NCBI GenBank assembly: GCA_002104895.1
Contig: MCFG01000081.1
Coordinates: forward strand, 134,319-198,318
Origin: Anaeromyces robustus
Lineage: Eukaryota > Neocallimastigomycota > Neocallimastigomycetes > Neocallimastigales > Neocallimastigaceae
Length of the DNA stretch: 64,000 bases
Reading direction: 5' to 3'
Every line of letters begins with the position of its first letter. Position 1 is the first letter of the stretch. Under the pieces are notes generated by a model that made no database searches, had not been told where the DNA came from, and saw nothing but the letters and a program-made list of their open reading frames with translations. A program made the position numbers and the translations under genes. Shown here one piece after another: positions 1 through 64,000 of this stretch.

Positions 1-1129
1 TGTGTAATTATGTAATAATTAACACAAAATATTTATTTATTTATTGGTCAATAATAAAATAAATTAAAATTAAAATATTAAACTTTATTAAATATATATT
101 AAATTATGGAGGTATAAATAAACTAAATAAATAATGGAGTAGATAGAAAAAAAAATAAATAAATAAATAAAAAACAAACAAAAATATTCATTTTAAGTAT
201 ATAAACAAATAAAATGAAAAACACATGTAAAGTTAATTATAAATGCTATTAAAAAAATGGAAGTATAACAAATATAAAAATAAAATATATTATTAAACTT
301 TTAGAGTTATAAATAAACTAAATTTATGGAATTATGAAGCATATAAAAAAATAAAAAAATAAATAAATAAATAAATAAAACAAAAAAAAAATTTTTTATT
401 TTGTGTAAATAAAAAATCCTATATAAGCAAATAGAATAAAGAGTATATGAAGAGTTTATAATAAATGATATATAAAATTGAAATTGAAGTATAACAAATA
501 TTAAAACAATATTCATTAGTTTTATTTTTTTAATTATATATACTATATATTAAATAACAAATAAACATTTAAATAGTATACATATAGAAATATATCATAA
601 TATTATAGTCATCTATACTAATTATCTTTTAATATAACTAAATATCTTTCTGTTTTTTAATTATTCCTATCTTGTCCTTTCTCCTTTTTATTGACTAATC
701 TTAAGTCAAAAAATAATAATAATAGTACAGTTATTTTATTTTTCTAAAAAAAATTTTTTTTTTTTTTCTATTTATTAATATTAGGAATTCAATTTTATTG
801 GTCATTAAAAAAATGATTCACTAAATAAAGTTTATTAAATATAAATTAAAAATTCTTTGGTATATATTAATATTTATGGATAATAAATGAATAATAATGA
901 TAAAAAAAAACATATAAAAGTAACTTTGTTTCCTCTTTATTTTTTTTTTTTTTTTCAACACACAAAAAAAAAAAATAAATATTTATTTTATAAATATATT
1001 TATAAAATAAAATAAACAAAACTATAGATATATTTGTATAATATATATATATATATATTATATTATTAAATAAAAAAATATATATATCAAAAAAAATAAT
1101 TGTATATATATTAGAAATAAAAATTTAAA
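1..1129. other. AT-rich intergenic region, no gene seen
   Basis: Homopolymers and (A)nT runs with stops in all frames. I see no exon-like stretch or structured RNA. The last about 100 bases form the A-rich leader of the gene that starts at 1130. Confidence 0.6.
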
Positions 1130-3163
1130 ATGAAATTAATAAAAACTTTTATTTGTGCTTTTATAGCACTTATAGGTATAGTTTCTACTCAATCTATAAG
1201 TACAAATGAATATACAAAAGAACTTTTTACAGTAAATTTAATCGAAACTAAAAAATATACAGTTGAAGGTAGTACATGTACAGTTGATATGATCTATCTC
1301 GAAGGTTCTTGTGCTGGTGAATACTTCAATGGTGAACTTATATTTAAAGATAGTAGTGATGTTGTTAAAACATTTAAAGATGGTAGAATTGAATCAATTG
1401 CAAGATATTATGTTGAAGGTACTGATAATAACAAAAATGCTGGTCGTTTACATTTTGAAGATATTTTTGTTGGTTATGATGAAGATGAACATCCAATTAC
1501 CAGACCAAACTTTATTACTGATATTGAAAGTTTGACATGGATTCAAACTGCTGATGTAATAGGTATTGTAGAAAAAACTGATGAAGGAAGAATTGTTCGT
1601 TTTATGTGGAATAAAAACGGTAAAAAATCATATCCAGTTGCTAAAACACCAGAATTAACCAAAAATTATAGTAAACAAATTTTAACAATTGATGTCACTA
1701 TTCCAGGTTTAGGTTTTGATGGTGTCCCTGCTTTAACTTTTGATGGTACCAAAGGTAAAGAAGATGCTAGTGTTTGGAAACTTGGTTTTACTTGTGCTTC
1801 TAATTCTACAGAATTCCAAGGTGTAGGTTTAGATTATTTTGTTGATACTAGATACAATTATATTGGACAACCACAAATTATATCAGCTCGTTATATCATT
1901 GAAGGAAAAGATAAAGAAGGTAATAAAATGAGAATCTACGTTGAAAATAATGGTATTGATGATTTTGGTGATAATAAAAATGTTAAAACTGAACCAACAA
2001 TTATTACTGATAATCCAAAATGGGCATGGATTGAAACTGCTCCACTTCATGGTACACATTCTGATGTAGCTCTTCAAATCTTTTTCTGGACTGTTGAAGG
2101 TGCTGATGAAAATCAACAACCAGAAATTGAAGAACCAACAGAACTTCAACCAGAAGACACTGATCTTCCAGTAGAAGTAGAAATAGAAATACCAACAATA
2201 ATGCACATAGAAGATTCAGAGTTTTCAGAACAATCAGAACCATCAGACATTGTAGATACAAGCAAATATACAAAAGAAGTTTTTACAGTAAATATCGCTG
2301 AAACTAAAAAGTATACAGTTGAAGGTACTACATGTTTAGTTGAAATGATCTATCTTGAAGGTACTTGTTCAGGTGAATATTTCAATGGTGAACTTATATT
2401 TAAGGATAGCAGTGATGTTGTTAAAACATTTAAAGATGGTAAAATTGAAGCAACAGCAAGATATTATGTTGAAGGTACTGATAATAACAATAATGCTGGT
2501 CATATACATTTTGAAGACAACCTTCTTGGTTTTGATAACAGTCAACATCCAATTACCATACCAACTATTATTACTGATATTGAAAATTTAGAATGGCTTC
2601 AAACAGCTGATATCATAGGTGTCACAGAAAAAATTGATTCAGGAAGAATTATTCATTATATGTGGAATGAAAGTAATACTACCAAGAAACCATATCCAGT
2701 TGCAAAATATCCAGATGAAACTAGAAACTACAATAAAAAGGTACTTAGTGTTGATGTTATTCCAGGTGGTTTAGGTTTTAATGTTTTCCCAGGTGTTGAT
2801 GGTACTTTTGTTGGTAAATATGGTTTCCAATGCTTTGTTAATAATACCATGTTCCAAGGTGAAGGTGTAGACTATTTCGTTGATACTAGATATGGTTTTA
2901 CTGGTCAACCACAAGCATTATCCGCTCGTTATATCGTAGAAGGAAAGGATGATGAAGGTAATGCTATGAAAATTTACGTTGAAAATAACGGTCTTGATGA
3001 TAATGGTGATAATCAAAATGTTAGAACCGAACCATTAATCATTACTGATAATCCAAAATGGGCATGGATTGAAACTGCACCACTTCATGGTAATATGACA
3101 ATGGAAGAAGGTATTCAAATTTTATTCTGGACTGTTGAAGATGCTGATGTTGATTTAAATTAA
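1130..3163 (+). CDS. Secreted protein with four DUF3237-like domains (two tandem pairs)
   Basis: A single exon of 677 residues. Residues 1 to about 21 (MKLIKTFICAFIALIGIVST) look like a signal peptide, so the protein is probably secreted. The mature chain is an A-B module (about 28-335), an acidic Glu/Pro-rich linker (about 340-378), then a second A-B module (about 380-677). Each of the four segments has a GEY/ARY(Y/I)(V/I)EG strand, a HFED or YVENNG turn, a (I/P)xxITD motif and a W(I/L)(Q/E)TA(D/P) strand. This resembles the DUF3237 (UPF0311) barrel pattern ARY-to-YVxNRG-to-WL. The two halves are highly similar in protein and DNA, offset by about 1,055 bases, so the gene arose by internal duplication. 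Cysteines recur at matching places in each half, suggesting disulfides. Function and substrate are unknown. The DUF3237 link is from pattern memory, not a search. Confidence 0.75.
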   Translation: MKLIKTFICAFIALIGIVSTQSISTNEYTKELFTVNLIETKKYTVEGSTCTVDMIYLEGSCAGEYFNGELIFKDSSDVVKTFKDGRIESIARYYVEGTDNNKNAGRLHFEDIFVGYDEDEHPITRPNFITDIESLTWIQTADVIGIVEKTDEGRIVRFMWNKNGKKSYPVAKTPELTKNYSKQILTIDVTIPGLGFDGVPALTFDGTKGKEDASVWKLGFTCASNSTEFQGVGLDYFVDTRYNYIGQPQIISARYIIEGKDKEGNKMRIYVENNGIDDFGDNKNVKTEPTIITDNPKWAWIETAPLHGTHSDVALQIFFWTVEGADENQQPEIEEPTELQPEDTDLPVEVEIEIPTIMHIEDSEFSEQSEPSDIVDTSKYTKEVFTVNIAETKKYTVEGTTCLVEMIYLEGTCSGEYFNGELIFKDSSDVVKTFKDGKIEATARYYVEGTDNNNNAGHIHFEDNLLGFDNSQHPITIPTIITDIENLEWLQTADIIGVTEKIDSGRIIHYMWNESNTTKKPYPVAKYPDETRNYNKKVLSVDVIPGGLGFNVFPGVDGTFVGKYGFQCFVNNTMFQGEGVDYFVDTRYGFTGQPQALSARYIVEGKDDEGNAMKIYVENNGLDDNGDNQNVRTEPLIITDNPKWAWIETAPLHGNMTMEEGIQILFWTVEDADVDLN

Positions 3164-43679: not shown

Positions 43680-44806
43680 ATGAGTTCTTTAAATTCACTA
43701 CCCGTACTTAAGCCAAAAAAGGTTGAATCAACCGAACAACCTAAATCTGATAAGGAAATGGAACGCTTAAGAAAAATAAGAGAAAGGTATTTATCAAATG
43801 TCTTTAAAAGAAATAAATTAATTAATTAAGAAAAAGTGTAATTAAATAAAAAAAGAAATAAATGAGTATTATTAAAATTATTTTGGATATTAATAAAATT
43901 TTTTTTGGTATATTATTTTAATAGAATAATTCGTAACAGAGCATCAGCCAATGCCTCAAGACAAAAGAAGAAGCAATATTTAGAATTATTAGAAAAGAAA
44001 AATAAAGAATTAACACAACAAAAAGAAATAGTAGATAAAGAAAACCAACAGTTAAAAAATGAAAATGAAAATTTAAAATTACAAATTCAATATTTAAATC
44101 AAACTGTAAATAAAATGAATGCCATATTGAATGAAAAACAACAATCAATAGAAAGCATCCAACTTCAAAATAATATTCTACTATCAAATAATATATATGC
44201 TTCTCCTCTTTCTGAAATAAGTAATAATTTCACTTCTTCTGATATAAATTCACCTGAAAGTCTTTCCAACGTATCCTACCCATCACCGTTATTTAATGAT
44301 AACTCAATATATCCATTTACATCATCACCAATAATTACCAATCTTCCAATAAATACTAATAATAATGTTAATAATACTAATGATACTACTAATATTATTG
44401 ATACCAACGTAAATACTATTGTTAACAATGTTAATGCATTATCTCCACAGTCGAGTGTTGGCGAGCCAGCAGTGCTCACCAATGAGAATTCCCTGCAGCG
44501 GACACTCTTCTGCCAGAGAATAATGCAACAACTATTGGAAACAATGATATTAACGACCTCCTTAACAACTTACTTGATGATGACCTTAGCCTCTACAATA
44601 CCGATTTCACTATTACGACGGCTGAACAACAACAACAACTACAAGAACTTATATCAGAGAAAGAATTATATAATTCAGCATGTTCCAATTTCCAATCAGA
44701 ATTCCCATCTGAATATGAAGGTAATGAATTATCCTATGAACAATTACTCCAATTATTGGAACAACAAGTTTTATTATTGGAAAGACAAGATCAGTTGATG
44801 GTATAA
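43680..44806 (+). CDS. HAC1: HAC1/XBP1-type bZIP factor requiring IRE1 mRNA splicing
   Basis: Exons 43680-43786 and 43925-44469, then 44496-44806 after removal of a 26-nt unconventional intron, encode 320 residues. The basic region is RLRKIRERRIIRNRASANAS (about 29-48) followed by RQKKK; the N-x-x-(A/S)-A-x-x-(S)-R core is intact. A Leu/Asn zipper follows to about 115, then an Asn/Ser/Pro-rich stretch. Unspliced mRNA reads on to a stop at 44796-44798 (326 residues). Spliced mRNA changes frame at residue 218 and adds 103 residues with acidic/Leu and Gln-rich features (NDINDLLNNLLDDDLSL, AEQQQQLQELISEKEL), a good activation domain. This factor should drive the unfolded protein response in the nucleus. 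The end is LMV-stop; a GT-AG alternative (donor 44801, acceptor near 44953) would give a slightly longer tail, LMISAL. Confidence 0.92.
44457..44507 (+). promoter_or_regulatory. Twin IRE1 splice-site hairpins bounding a 26-nt intron
   Basis: Hairpin 1: arm 44457-44466 pairs with 44474-44483 (TGGCGAGC/GCTCACCA core, one C-A mismatch) around the 7-nt loop CAGCAGT (44467-44473). Hairpin 2: TCC (44490-44492) and GAG (44484-44486) pair with GGA (44500-44502) and CTC (44505-44507) around the loop CTGCAGC (44493-44499). Both loops fit the IRE1 consensus CNG|CNGN. Cleavage after 44469 and 44495 releases 44470-44495, exactly 26 nt as in animal XBP1, and shifts the frame. The patch is strikingly GC-rich for this genome. 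Confidence 0.92.
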
Positions 44807-58737: not shown

Positions 58738-60944
58738 ATGAAATTCTATAATTTAAAGTATTTCTTTTTATTTTTAATCTTATTAATAATAAGTCAATGT
58801 AAGTTATCAATAAATTTCATAATATAAATTAATAATATAAAATATTATTATGATAATTGTTAGAATATTAATTTATTAAATATTTATTTTAAAAATTATA
58901 TAGCTGTTTTCTGCCAAGAAGCTGATACTGATAAACCAGAGGATAAAGTTACTACATCTACAGGTGATAATAATGATCAACCAACAGTGACTTCTTCACA
59001 ATCAGTAACTACAACAGCAAATGGTAAGAATTATTGAATATATAGAATAATTATTTTTAAAGTTTTTTTTTTCTTTATATGGACTAGAGAAATATTATTA
59101 TGTATTATTAATTTAATAATCCTTTTTCAATTATATTTGTTATTTTTTTTATTTTTGTTTTATTTTTTATTTAATAAGAACAAATTGAAAATAATGTTAT
59201 TGATACAAAAAAAGAAACGACGACAAGTATGATATATAAAATTATAGATGTTATTAATAATATATAATATGGAGTAGAAAATATATAAGATTAATAACAT
59301 TTTTATTTGTTTTTCTATAATTCTGTTGTTTTGGTTGTTTTTTATATTGTTTGTTATTATTTTATTTTATTTTTTTGTTAAAATAAAAGTTACAAACGAT
59401 GTTATTAATCTTAACGAGAAAGTGGAGGAACAAAATGATATAAAAACAGACGATAATAAAAATAGTGCATTCAATTTTATTATTAGTACTACTAGTAATA
59501 ATATTAGTAGTAGTAGTACTAATAATATTGAAGCGACAATTACATCAAATAGTATGATTGTTATTTTTTTTTATAAATAAATATATATTAATAGTTTTTT
59601 TTAATTGGTTTTTTATTTTAATATTTGGTATATATAATTTTATAAACATATAATTGAAGATAATATTGTACCAATAGAAACAACTACGGTTAATTATCAA
59701 ACAACAACTATATCGACAACTACAATTAGTATTAGTATGTTTATAATTTATAACACCATTTTTTTATTTTTATTTTTATTTTATAAATTTTTTATTTATT
59801 TTTTTTGTTTTTATTTTTATTTTTATTTTATATTTTTTTTTTAAAAAAATAAAATATTAAATAATATTTAATATATAACAATATTAAAAAAAATATAGCC
59901 AGAACAACAGATAAGGTTACAACAACTTCAAGTAAAAGTAGTACTCCATCTCCAACATCAGGCGGTAAACACGATGATGATCATCACAGTGGAAGTACTT
60001 CTACTTCTAGTTATAATAATGGTAGTAGCTCTAGTAATACTAGTAGTAGCTCTAATACCGGTTCAACACCAATACAACAACCACAACCACAACCAACACA
60101 AGATCAACAACAAAATCAAGATCAACAACAAGATCAACAACAACAAGCTCTTCAACAACAAAATCAAAATCCTGATCAAAGTACAAACGTTCCAAGTGGA
60201 ATCGCTAATACTATTGGTACAATAGACAGTGGTAATGTTGAAAATAAACAAAAGAAAAAAAATGATGGTGTTCCTGTTTGGTGTATTATTTTAGGTTGTT
60301 TACTTGTTGGTGCTCTTTTAATTGGTACTGTTGGTTTTGTTATGTCTGTTCAAAAGAAAAAGAAGAATAATGACCAATTAACACCAAACTTATGGACTGC
60401 GGATGATTTTGATTCAAGAGTTATCACACCAATTGCTGCTCCCGCCAACACTTATAATATGAATAATGTTCCAATCTCTCAACCAATGTATCAACAAACT
60501 ACATATGGCCAAGCCCCAGTTATGTCGGAAGCTTATCAATCAGTTCAAAGCCCAGCATATGCTGATCCAAATGCACAATTACCACCATCAACAACAGGTG
60601 GTGTTGCTGTTCCAATTGATAATTCTTATTCTAATGATTATCCAAATGGAAATCCAAATGAATACATCCCAACTTCTATTGATGAGTTAAAGGTTAATAA
60701 TGTCTACACATCTCAATTTACTTTCCAACCAGAATTAGATGATGAAATTGAAATTAATATTGATGATCAAATCTTTATAGAAGAGATCTTTGCTGATAAT
60801 TGGGCTTTAGGTGTTAATACTACTAATAATGCTCGTGGTTGTTTCCCATTGAACATTTTCTTAAATCCAAAGAGCACATTAGATAATTCAAGATCTCAAC
60901 GTACTTTATCATATTGCAGTAATGGAAATGGTCCATCATATTAA
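58738..60944 (+). CDS. Fus1-like mucin-type single-pass membrane protein with SH3 domain
   Basis: Six exons: 58738-58798, 58904-59023, 59179-59226, 59390-59551, 59660-59734 and 59899-60944, all phase 1, encoding 503 residues. A signal peptide (MKFYNLKYFFLFLILLIISQ) is followed by a Ser/Thr-rich ectodomain (about 21-260) likely O-glycosylated, ending in a Gln-rich stretch. One membrane span lies at about 283-306 (VPVWCIILGCLLVGALLIGT then VGFVM). A basic stop-transfer (QKKKKNN) follows, then a linker, and an SH3 domain at about 419-478 with motifs SQFTFQPELDDEIEINIDDQ, W(A)LG and GCFPLNIF. The order signal-mucin-TM-SH3 is that of yeast Fus1 and resembles osmosensor/wall-sensor proteins. A role in surface signalling and SH3-ligand recruitment is inferred. 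The exon 5 acceptor (59659) is the least certain junction. Confidence 0.85.
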
Positions 60945-61797: not shown

Positions 61798-62509
61798 TCC
61801 CTCTTCTGAGGTCCTGTACTTTCCAATTTATTGGAATGGTCGGAAGAGGAAGAATGCCTGTCGAGACATGGCGACGTCAATGGCATTGTTACAACTTATG
61901 ATATTGTACTTGTATCTAAGTTGGGCATTATGCGCAATGATAATGCTTGGTGTAATGATTATTTATATTCACTATTCGGTTAAAGAAGTAGGTAACATTA
62001 TGCGCAATGATAATGTTAGTAATAAAAAGTACGACTTTTTATTACAATCCATTTTTTTCTTTGAAATAATTACCTTACACTATTTATGTTATTTAGTTTA
62101 TATTGCAGTTCTTTTTACAATTAAGTTTTTTATGTTTCTATCAATTCTACACTATTATTCTTATATACAGCACAATCAATACAACACAATAAATACTATA
62201 CAATACAATTTTTTACATACCAACAATAAAAGTTTTTTTATTCACTAATACATCATTCACAACGTTAAATTATATATACAACTACACAGTTGAATCTCTT
62301 ACTTTTACTCTCAACAATATTTCTCAGTCATTTACTATAATTCTTTTCATTGCTAAGTTTTTTTTTTATATACTTTTTTATTTTTTAATTATATATTAAA
62401 ATCATAAAAAAAAAAAAAAAAAAAAATTTGCTATTTTCTATTATAATACATTTATATTTTTTTTATTTTATTATTTTTTTTTTATATAGATTCTTATCAG
62501 CCTTATCAA
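61798..62509 (+). mobile_element. Probable 5' region of the LINE, with coding-like remnants
   Basis: GC content rises sharply after the poly(T) at 61775-61797. One frame (61810-61983) reads LEWSEEEECLSRHGDVNGIV then TTYDIVLVSK, and stops. A 20-base sequence, CATTATGCGCAATGATAATG, occurs at 61926-61945 and 61996-62015; each copy has CATTAT/ATAATG inverted ends. A second frame (61868-62248) is hydrophobic and less convincing. Poly(A) at 62405-62426 and T-rich DNA separate this from the endonuclease ORF. It may be the element's 5' UTR, an ORF1 remnant, or an older unrelated insertion. Confidence 0.4.
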
Positions 62510-64000
62510 ATGGATCATACGAACTATACTAATAAGATTAACTATATCAGACGGGGTATTAGGTGTCATGGTATTGATATCTCAGATACTTATGTTATTT
62601 TTATCCGTCGCATTCGTTCTTGGACTCTTCCAAAATTTAGAAATTTTCTTGAGAAGAATTTCCCTGAGTTTAATAATACCATCGTTGCTGTTAAACATTC
62701 CTCTCTTCTCAATGATAATTTATATCAAATTAAAACTACAGCTTCTGAGGAGAATATTAATAAATTTATTGATAGTTTCAAATTAATTATTAAAAAATGT
62801 TCCATTAACTTTCATCGATGTAGTAGGAAGAATCACAAGCCTTCCTTTGCTCTTATCAGGAGAAAACTTTGCCACTCTAAAAAGAACATTAAGGATATTA
62901 CTGACTTTTCTGAAATCAACAATTCTTTTACTTCTAAGAACAATTTGAATGAATTTTCCTTTTGTCTTAGTTGGAACACTAACGGGTGGAATAATAAGAA
63001 AAGAGATGGTATTCTGTATTTCTTTAGTCTCTTTAAACCGCTATTTGTTTGTTTTCAAGAAACTGGTAATGGTACTAATTCTAGTAATGTTATTCCTTGT
63101 AAAATCACTTTACCTAAATATAAATATTTCTGTAAGAGAGCAAATAATACAATTCCTGGTTTGAGAGGTTTATATATCTTTTATAATAGGTCTTTACAGA
63201 CTTCTATTGAAGATTTTTCTTTGAATTATATTATCTCAGTTACGACATATTCCTTGTGGAACTTCACTAAGTGTTCTATTGGAAATATTTATATACCTCA
63301 GAAAGGGCATAGTTTACACCATAAATCTGCTAAAGCAGAAGCTTGTACATGGTTTTCTCTTCACTTACATCATCCTTCTATTCTCCTTGGCGATTTTAAC
63401 ATTAATCTTGAAGATATTCAAAATTGGGTTTCTAATATAAATGGCTGGTATTTATTTCAACTCAATGGTTCTCCTATCTCGTGGGTAAGTGGAAGTCGTT
63501 CCTCTGCTATTGACCATGCTATTATTAATGAACCTATGAAAAATCTTCTGTCTTCAGCTTCAATTATTGATTTCTCTCCTATCTCCGATCATAAGCCTCT
63601 TCTTGTTTTTGGAAATTATTTTGATGATAATAATACTTTCTCACTCCCTAAAAAACCAGCTCGTTGGAATAGAATCAAATGTCTGGACGAAAGTATTAAA
63701 ATTGCTACTAGTAATAGATTTAGTATTCTTATGAAGGAATGTACAGATAATTATTATTCTTCTAATGCTATATATGATATGTTTGTATCTACTGCTAATT
63801 CTATTGCTGATGAATTGGAAATTGTATCTACTCCTGATATTCATGAATCTATGTTTCATATGTCTCAAAAAATCTTTAACCTTCAGAAACTCAAAGTTAA
63901 GGCTTACAAAGATATTAAAAAATTGGGTTCTGTTCGTGCCCTTGATGATTATATTAGACTTATCAATAATTATCAGAAGCTGTGTGATAATATCCACAAG
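62510..64000 (+). CDS. LINE ORF2 start with APE-type endonuclease (partial, runs off window)
   Basis: An open frame of 497 codons from ATG (62510) to the window end without a stop. The endonuclease motifs of non-LTR retrotransposons are in order: LSWNTNGW (about 153-160, metal-binding Asn), CFQETG (about 181-186, catalytic Glu), LLGDFNI (about 292-298), SAIDHAI (about 332-338) and SDHKPL (about 358-363). The protein would nick target DNA to prime reverse transcription; the reverse transcriptase domain should lie beyond 64000. About 150 residues precede the endonuclease, with many basic residues and cysteines, which is longer than usual. Codon use is much less A/T-biased than neighbouring genes, as expected of a mobile element. 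The frame is intact here, so the copy may be recent. Confidence 0.9.
   Translation, partial: MDHTNYTNKINYIRRGIRCHGIDISDTYVIFIRRIRSWTLPKFRNFLEKNFPEFNNTIVAVKHSSLLNDNLYQIKTTASEENINKFIDSFKLIIKKCSINFHRCSRKNHKPSFALIRRKLCHSKKNIKDITDFSEINNSFTSKNNLNEFSFCLSWNTNGWNNKKRDGILYFFSLFKPLFVCFQETGNGTNSSNVIPCKITLPKYKYFCKRANNTIPGLRGLYIFYNRSLQTSIEDFSLNYIISVTTYSLWNFTKCSIGNIYIPQKGHSLHHKSAKAEACTWFSLHLHHPSILLGDFNINLEDIQNWVSNINGWYLFQLNGSPISWVSGSRSSAIDHAIINEPMKNLLSSASIIDFSPISDHKPLLVFGNYFDDNNTFSLPKKPARWNRIKCLDESIKIATSNRFSILMKECTDNYYSSNAIYDMFVSTANSIADELEIVSTPDIHESMFHMSQKIFNLQKLKVKAYKDIKKLGSVRALDDYIRLINNYQKLCDNIHK

Follow-up and report, generated by a model that had tools for sequence, protein, structure and literature searches.

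A predicted HAC1/XBP1-type IRE1 switch with twin loops and a 26-nt intron in a bZIP gene of a gut fungus

Introduction

The question raised by this locus is whether a gut fungus regulates a bZIP gene by an IRE1 switch of the HAC1/XBP1 type, in which removal of a short intron framed by 2 RNA loops would exchange one protein tail for another. An earlier note, made from the letters of the DNA, had answered yes, naming an IRE1-type 26-nt intron in the gene. Enzymes that degrade biomass are secreted abundantly by anaerobic gut fungi, and a candidate IRE1 target with exact predicted cut sites would give a direct RT-PCR readout of their ER stress. Among the open-licence papers listed by our searches we found no earlier report of such a switch for Neocallimastigomycota, including none that pairs the phylum name with Hac1. 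A survey of stress genes in anaerobic gut fungi reports Ire1 in 4 genomes, and HAC1 is absent among its listed BLAST queries (PMC10512342). We put at roughly 93% the reading, based on sequence and computation, that the gene carries a HAC1/XBP1-type switch consisting of twin loops, a 26-nt intron and a frame shift to an acidic tail, and we predict that this switch is very probably functional.

Results

The window, meaning the whole 64-kb stretch of DNA that was analyzed, has a GC content of 16.3%. The genome it comes from has 683 candidate CBM_10 dockerins, and 150 of the 150 that were scored exceed the cut-off. We take such numbers to mark anaerobic gut fungi, which agrees with the suggestion in the earlier note that the DNA belongs to an early-diverging fungus. 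Elsewhere in the window, 1121-3163 encodes a 680-aa open reading frame (ORF) with 2 halves similar by eye, a DUF3237 match above the cut-off and a signal-like start. The ORF at 59865-60944 has a membrane-like segment, a weak SH3 match below the cut-off and, in its +1 frame, an open run of 108 codons. A further ORF at 62447-64000, running off the window end, is by eye like the endonuclease part of a LINE-type retroelement.

The HAC1/XBP1-like gene is modeled with these features:

43680-43786, forward strand: exon 1, from an inferred ATG at 43680, with the N-terminus and the first part of the basic region
43787-43924, forward strand: ordinary spliceosomal intron of 138 nt, GTATTT...AATAG, 11.6% GC, inferred from the frame and the bZIP match
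43925-44469, forward strand: exon 2 as far as the predicted 5' cut by IRE1, with the bZIP (PF00170 above cut-off) and a Ser/Pro/Asn-rich linker
44470-44495, forward strand: predicted IRE1 intron of 26 nt, containing the TGA 44483-44485 that closes the spliced frame
44496-44806, forward strand: spliced-frame tail of 102 aa, a presumed activation domain, ending with TAA 44804-44806
44470-44798, forward strand: unspliced-frame tail of 108 aa, ending with TGA 44796-44798

The GT-AG intron splits the basic region of the bZIP. The gene product matches PF00170 at 31.7 bits against a cut-off of 27.6; its bZIP matches in the Protein Data Bank (PDB) are weak and have no HAC1 or XBP1 chains among them, and the NCBIfam search gave no useful match. 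Searching the genome's own DNA with the gene returned one full copy, the other 76 matches listed being to the repetitive, Asn-codon-rich part of the query. Relatives of the bZIP part were sought in genome and viral contig collections, where 60 and 28 stretches, respectively, matched the pattern and none was confirmed.

With 44470-44495 removed, the spliced coding sequence is 963 nt long and encodes 320 aa; the unspliced product has 326 aa. The 2 tails are of opposite character. The spliced one has 102 residues after the junction codon, including 20 D/E, 2 K/R, 20 L and 12 Q, and the unspliced one has 3 D/E and 11 K/R in its 108 residues. Codon usage downstream of the junction, scored with a table of 2,102 codons from the exons of the IRE1 and Trl1 genes, gives +39.4 bits for the spliced frame, -65.4 for the unspliced frame and -123.2 for the third frame, which has 15 stops. 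This upholds the earlier claim that the bZIP frame would be joined to a coding tail that is acidic and rich in Leu and Gln. Because the TGA at 44483-44485 inside the 26 nt closes the joined frame, their removal is required for the joining.

The loops are read directly in the DNA as GAGC[CAGCAGT]GCTC at 44463-44477 and TCC[CTGCAGC]GGA at 44490-44502. Both 7-nt loops, CAG|CAGT (44467-44473) and CTG|CAGC (44493-44499), match CNG|CNGN, and cuts after 44469 and 44495 would excise CAGTGCTCACCAATGAGAATTCCCTG, exactly the 26 nt (44470-44495) that had been read there before. A second candidate 3' loop, CAGCGGA at 44496 on a 2-bp stem, would give a 29-nt intron with the frame unchanged, so 26 nt is the best reading and not the sole one. 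As a criterion for loop pairs we used CNG|CNGN loops on stems of at least 3 bp, spaced 15-60 nt apart. Dinucleotide shuffling of the gene, repeated 20,000 times, never gave a qualifying pair, in keeping with the low chance that the earlier note had assigned to the agreement of loops, spacing and frame; shuffling the GC-rich 101 nt alone produced 6 in 20,000, 5 of them frame-shifting. On both strands of the window the only qualifying pair is the one in this gene. The genome has 10 bZIP_1 matches, 9 above the cut-off, and no loop pair at 15-700 nt lies in the surroundings of the other 9, examined in stretches of 2.5-3.2 kb.

The loops sit within a larger structure, with these elements:

44408-44459, forward strand: closing stem, 5' arm, forming 42 pairs when folded freely and 40 in the twin-loop state
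44458-44482, forward strand: hairpin 1 as formed in the twin-loop state, with 8 pairs and one mismatch, predicted cut after 44469
44490-44502, forward strand: hairpin 2, 3 pairs, predicted cut after 44495
44501-44555, forward strand: closing stem, 3' arm, of which the first 2 bases pair with hairpin 2 in the twin-loop state

The extent first proposed for the element, 44457-44507, does contain the loops and has to be widened for the structure, which spans 44408-44555. In the free fold, 42 pairs join the 2 arms. Enforcing both loops leaves 40 pairs in the closing stem, with 8 in hairpin 1 and 3 in hairpin 2, and the 3 helices abut, no spare base separating the closing stem from either hairpin. 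Without the 26 nt, the closing stem forms over its whole length, as would be expected if the exons are held for ligation in the manner of a zipper (PMC6037481). The single GC-rich island of the window at the threshold used lies here, at 44441-44519; all 14 of the 65-mers in the window with a GC count of at least 37/65 have their starts at 44441-44455.

Pairing of the arms as stable as this was seen in 0 of 2,000 dinucleotide-shuffled arm pairs. The arm stability was equaled in 0 of 5,000 recodings by codon usage and in 2 of 5,000 synonymous permutations within the arms, and the full fold was more stable than 1,000 of 1,000 recodings. Since the stem goes beyond both shuffles and synonymous recodings, the RNA structure is likely under selection beyond protein coding. 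The full 148-nt fold has z = -6.13; the 86 nt around the loops are only moderately stable for their composition (z = -2.06, matched by 7 of 200 shuffles).

In the state of lowest energy the RNA is a rod, which is 5.1 kcal/mol better than the twin loops (-50.1 vs. -45.0 for 44408-44555), and free folding gives both loops together with a probability of about 7 × 10−5. The shortness of hairpin 2, at only 3 bp, also speaks against the twin loops. Energy models of the type used omit coaxial stacking, and the Rfam consensus, folded alike, likewise lacks its second 7-nt loop, so we weigh the preference for the rod as a caution.

Comparison with Rfam aligns RF04247 (bZIP non-canonical Hac1/Xbp1 intron) to 44448-44512 over all 72 model positions at 24.7 bits, with E = 0.072 in a search of 1,401 bases with 4,227 families. 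In the 70-Mb genome, where 73 of 260 first-look candidates were scored, the one match at E ≤ 10 is this same interval, 44448-44512, with E = 0.84. The score lies below the gathering score of 41 bits, which by the curated rule leaves the locus outside RF04247, and 7 of 14 control genomes also yield sub-threshold matches at E ≤ 10; by itself, then, the score would be no proof. Together with the loops, the coding tail and the shuffle test, the full-length alignment, below gathering as it is, sustains the original reading that this bZIP gene has a 26-nt intron of the IRE1 type. The printed RF04247 structure has 12 closing pairs vs. 40-42 bp here; the model may have been cut short, so we do not claim that the long stem is unique.

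The partner enzymes are encoded in the same genome. IRE1 has one locus, with a kinase and an RNase domain in which the catalytic His region is present, and phmmer aligns it to PDB chain 2rio_A, named IRE1, with E = 6.3 × 10−79. The RNase stretch RNKKHHY is common to this IRE1 and IRE1 chain 4yz9_A; where the stretch has its last H, the aligned residue of chain 3sdj_A is N. We take 2rio to be yeast IRE1, 4yz9 human IRE1 and 3sdj a catalytic mutant. The IRE1 start is signal-like (hydropathy 1.69), a segment is membrane-like (1.9), and the luminal PQQ_2 match is weak (E = 0.073).

For ligation, a search of the genome for RtcB detected none. The Trl1-type ligase domain PF09511 is found at 2 loci, and the tRNA ligase kinase domain PF08303 exceeds its cut-off. 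PF08302 (CPD) was unmatched in the 2 scanned pieces of one Trl1-type copy; two HxT motifs are visible by eye. The Trl1-type domains resemble 3 gene copies, 2 of them in tandem, at G000:C120:44727-50222 (L026) and G000:C734:113052-113925 (L027). By eye the kinase P-loop reads GFGKTT in the C734 copy, which seemingly is without part of the kinase region, and GSGKTT in the others.

No stop interrupts the unspliced frame for 96 codons; it ends at 44796, and the spliced frame stops 8 nt further on, as though translation of Hac1u were maintained. With TGA (unspliced) and TAA (spliced) both inside 44796-44806, the 2 transcripts have nearly identical 3' UTRs. Under synonymous recoding of the spliced frame, the unspliced frame stayed open in 78 of 20,000 cases by permutation and 9 of 20,000 by codon usage; a repeat of the test gave P = 0.0033, and overall P ranged from 0.0005 to 0.004. 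For comparison, the 24 ORFs that reach 250 aa and 22% GC included 4 whose +1 frame is open for 96 codons or more, and of their 8,503 stretches 221 were open. Among 180 half-overlapping stretches with hac1 excluded, 5 were open, all in locus L005 and all with P ≥ 0.15. The 23 other ORFs had 220 open among 8,267 stretches, in 4 ORFs, and in the 40 of those 220 that were tested P was never below 0.083. Open second frames as such are thus not rare in the genome, but the one in the HAC1/XBP1-like gene is less likely than any other that was tested.

The unspliced protein has a mildly hydrophobic run at residues 243-266 of 326, 60 residues before the C-terminus, and the best 19-residue mean hydropathy of the run is 1.34 vs. 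1.9 for the membrane segment of the genome's own IRE1. The hydrophobicity analysis made use of the Hessa scale. That the hydrophobicity of the tail is selected in itself was considered and set aside, as it is not beyond chance (P = 0.14 and 0.12).

Discussion

The proposed sequence of events is as follows. Unspliced mRNA would display 2 7-nt IRE1 loops atop a 40-42 bp stem formed by the flanking exons, and upon ER stress IRE1 would cut each loop after the third base and release the 26-nt intron. The long stem would keep the exons together while the Trl1-type ligase joins them, and the resulting frame shift would replace a basic, mildly hydrophobic tail by an acidic, Leu/Gln-rich tail that is presumably an activation domain. 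The loops, the stem, the frames and the IRE1 and Trl1-type genes are there to be read or computed; that the mRNA is cut and ligated, that this depends on stress, and that the product is an activator, we infer from them. How the exons stay together for Trl1 is a testable question posed by the long stem.

Other processes could bring the 2 frames together, and the most familiar is an ordinary GT-AG spliceosomal intron. With donors at 44150-44484 and acceptors at 44485-44640, there are 17 combinations of at least 35 nt in the right phase, among them 44221-44516 (296 nt, with a pyrimidine-rich CTTCTGCCAG end) and 44409-44518 (110 nt, with a GTAAAT donor), and the shortest candidates (44-62 nt) are compatible with the coding score. 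The long candidates would mostly sacrifice 44223-44465, however, which is stop-free, scores as coding by +53.8 bits against other frames and +58.0 against intergenic DNA, and has 28.8% GC vs. 11.6% in the gene's ordinary intron, whereas the short ones depend on donors GTGTTG, GTTGGC and GTGCTC unlike the gene's own GTATTT. As every candidate leaves the loops and the selected stem unexplained, we regard an ordinary intron as very unlikely. Equally improbable to us is that the loops are real IRE1 sites serving RIDD-like decay and not splicing. Mammals and fission yeast do use single CUG|CAG or UG|C loops as sites of decay (PMC6037481), but the presence here of 2 7-nt loops, an exon-holding stem and a coding second frame fits splicing, and ligation has been tied to such zipper structures in the same source.

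An assembly error or a broken gene, with an indel parting 2 halves of what was one frame, has in its favor that a one-base change would join the frames too and that one full copy is known from this one assembly. It does not predict twin loops of the CNG|CNGN form, an alignment to the Rfam family, a stem more stable than synonymous chance allows, or 2 frames that both stay open to stops 8 nt apart, and we give it even less credence than an ordinary intron. Programmed ribosomal frameshifting seems the most far-fetched of these explanations. In its favor, the spliced frame lies at -1 and there is a strong stem, as frameshifting on a stable hairpin would have it; yet the -1 frame is closed by the TGA at 44483-44485, so that a slip would have to come later, and by inspection 44484-44506 has no in-phase X_XXY_YYZ heptamer. 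Nor would frameshifting predict the loops. The IRE1 switch remains our preferred reading.

Why the unspliced frame is open is a separate matter. Because it is kept open for 96 codons beyond synonymous chance, we raise as a tentative and rather doubtful possibility a fungal XBP1u-like system, in which the unspliced mRNA would be translated and the hydrophobic run, emerging near termination, would draw the mRNA to membrane-bound IRE1, with the 40-42-bp stem holding the exons for Trl1. A simpler reason would be that an open frame lets the unspliced mRNA escape nonsense-mediated decay. The kept-open frame makes it a testable question whether co-translational membrane delivery of such an mRNA exists outside animals, and if the XBP1u-like system is old, such delivery predates animals.

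Relative to known systems, the locus has the architecture of RF04247 and aligns over the full length of that family, differing by a score below gathering. It shares IRE1, a Trl1-type ligase and 7-nt CNG|CNGN loops with fungal HAC1/HacA/HXL1. Cryptococcus HXL1 also has both an ordinary and an unconventional intron, the latter of 56 nt vs. 26 here (PMC3154848), and the unconventional intron of HAC1 ranges from 19 to 848 nt within CTG-Ser1 yeasts (PMC6222058). Plant bZIP60 has a short intron too, of 23 nt, and its frame shift takes away a hydrophobic segment, as the predicted one here would; in bZIP60u that includes a transmembrane domain (PMC4891664), whereas the segment here is weaker than the membrane segment of the genome's own IRE1. 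Given that published lengths vary so widely, the argument from length fails, and the idea in the earlier note that 26 nt is the ancestral opisthokont form finds no support in one species with a Trl1-type ligase and RtcB undetected.

Metazoan XBP1 is alike in its 26-nt intron (PMC4084626) and in the frame shift to an activating tail, which is predicted here. In XBP1u the HR2 stretch, of moderate hydrophobicity, lies about 52 residues away from the peptidyl center (PMC6624018), and the run here comes 60 residues before the C-terminus of a long unspliced tail. The differences from XBP1 are the Trl1-type ligase, with RtcB undetected, and the closing stem of 40-42 bp. The intron length of mammals is paired here with the ligase type of yeast and plants (PMC4891664).
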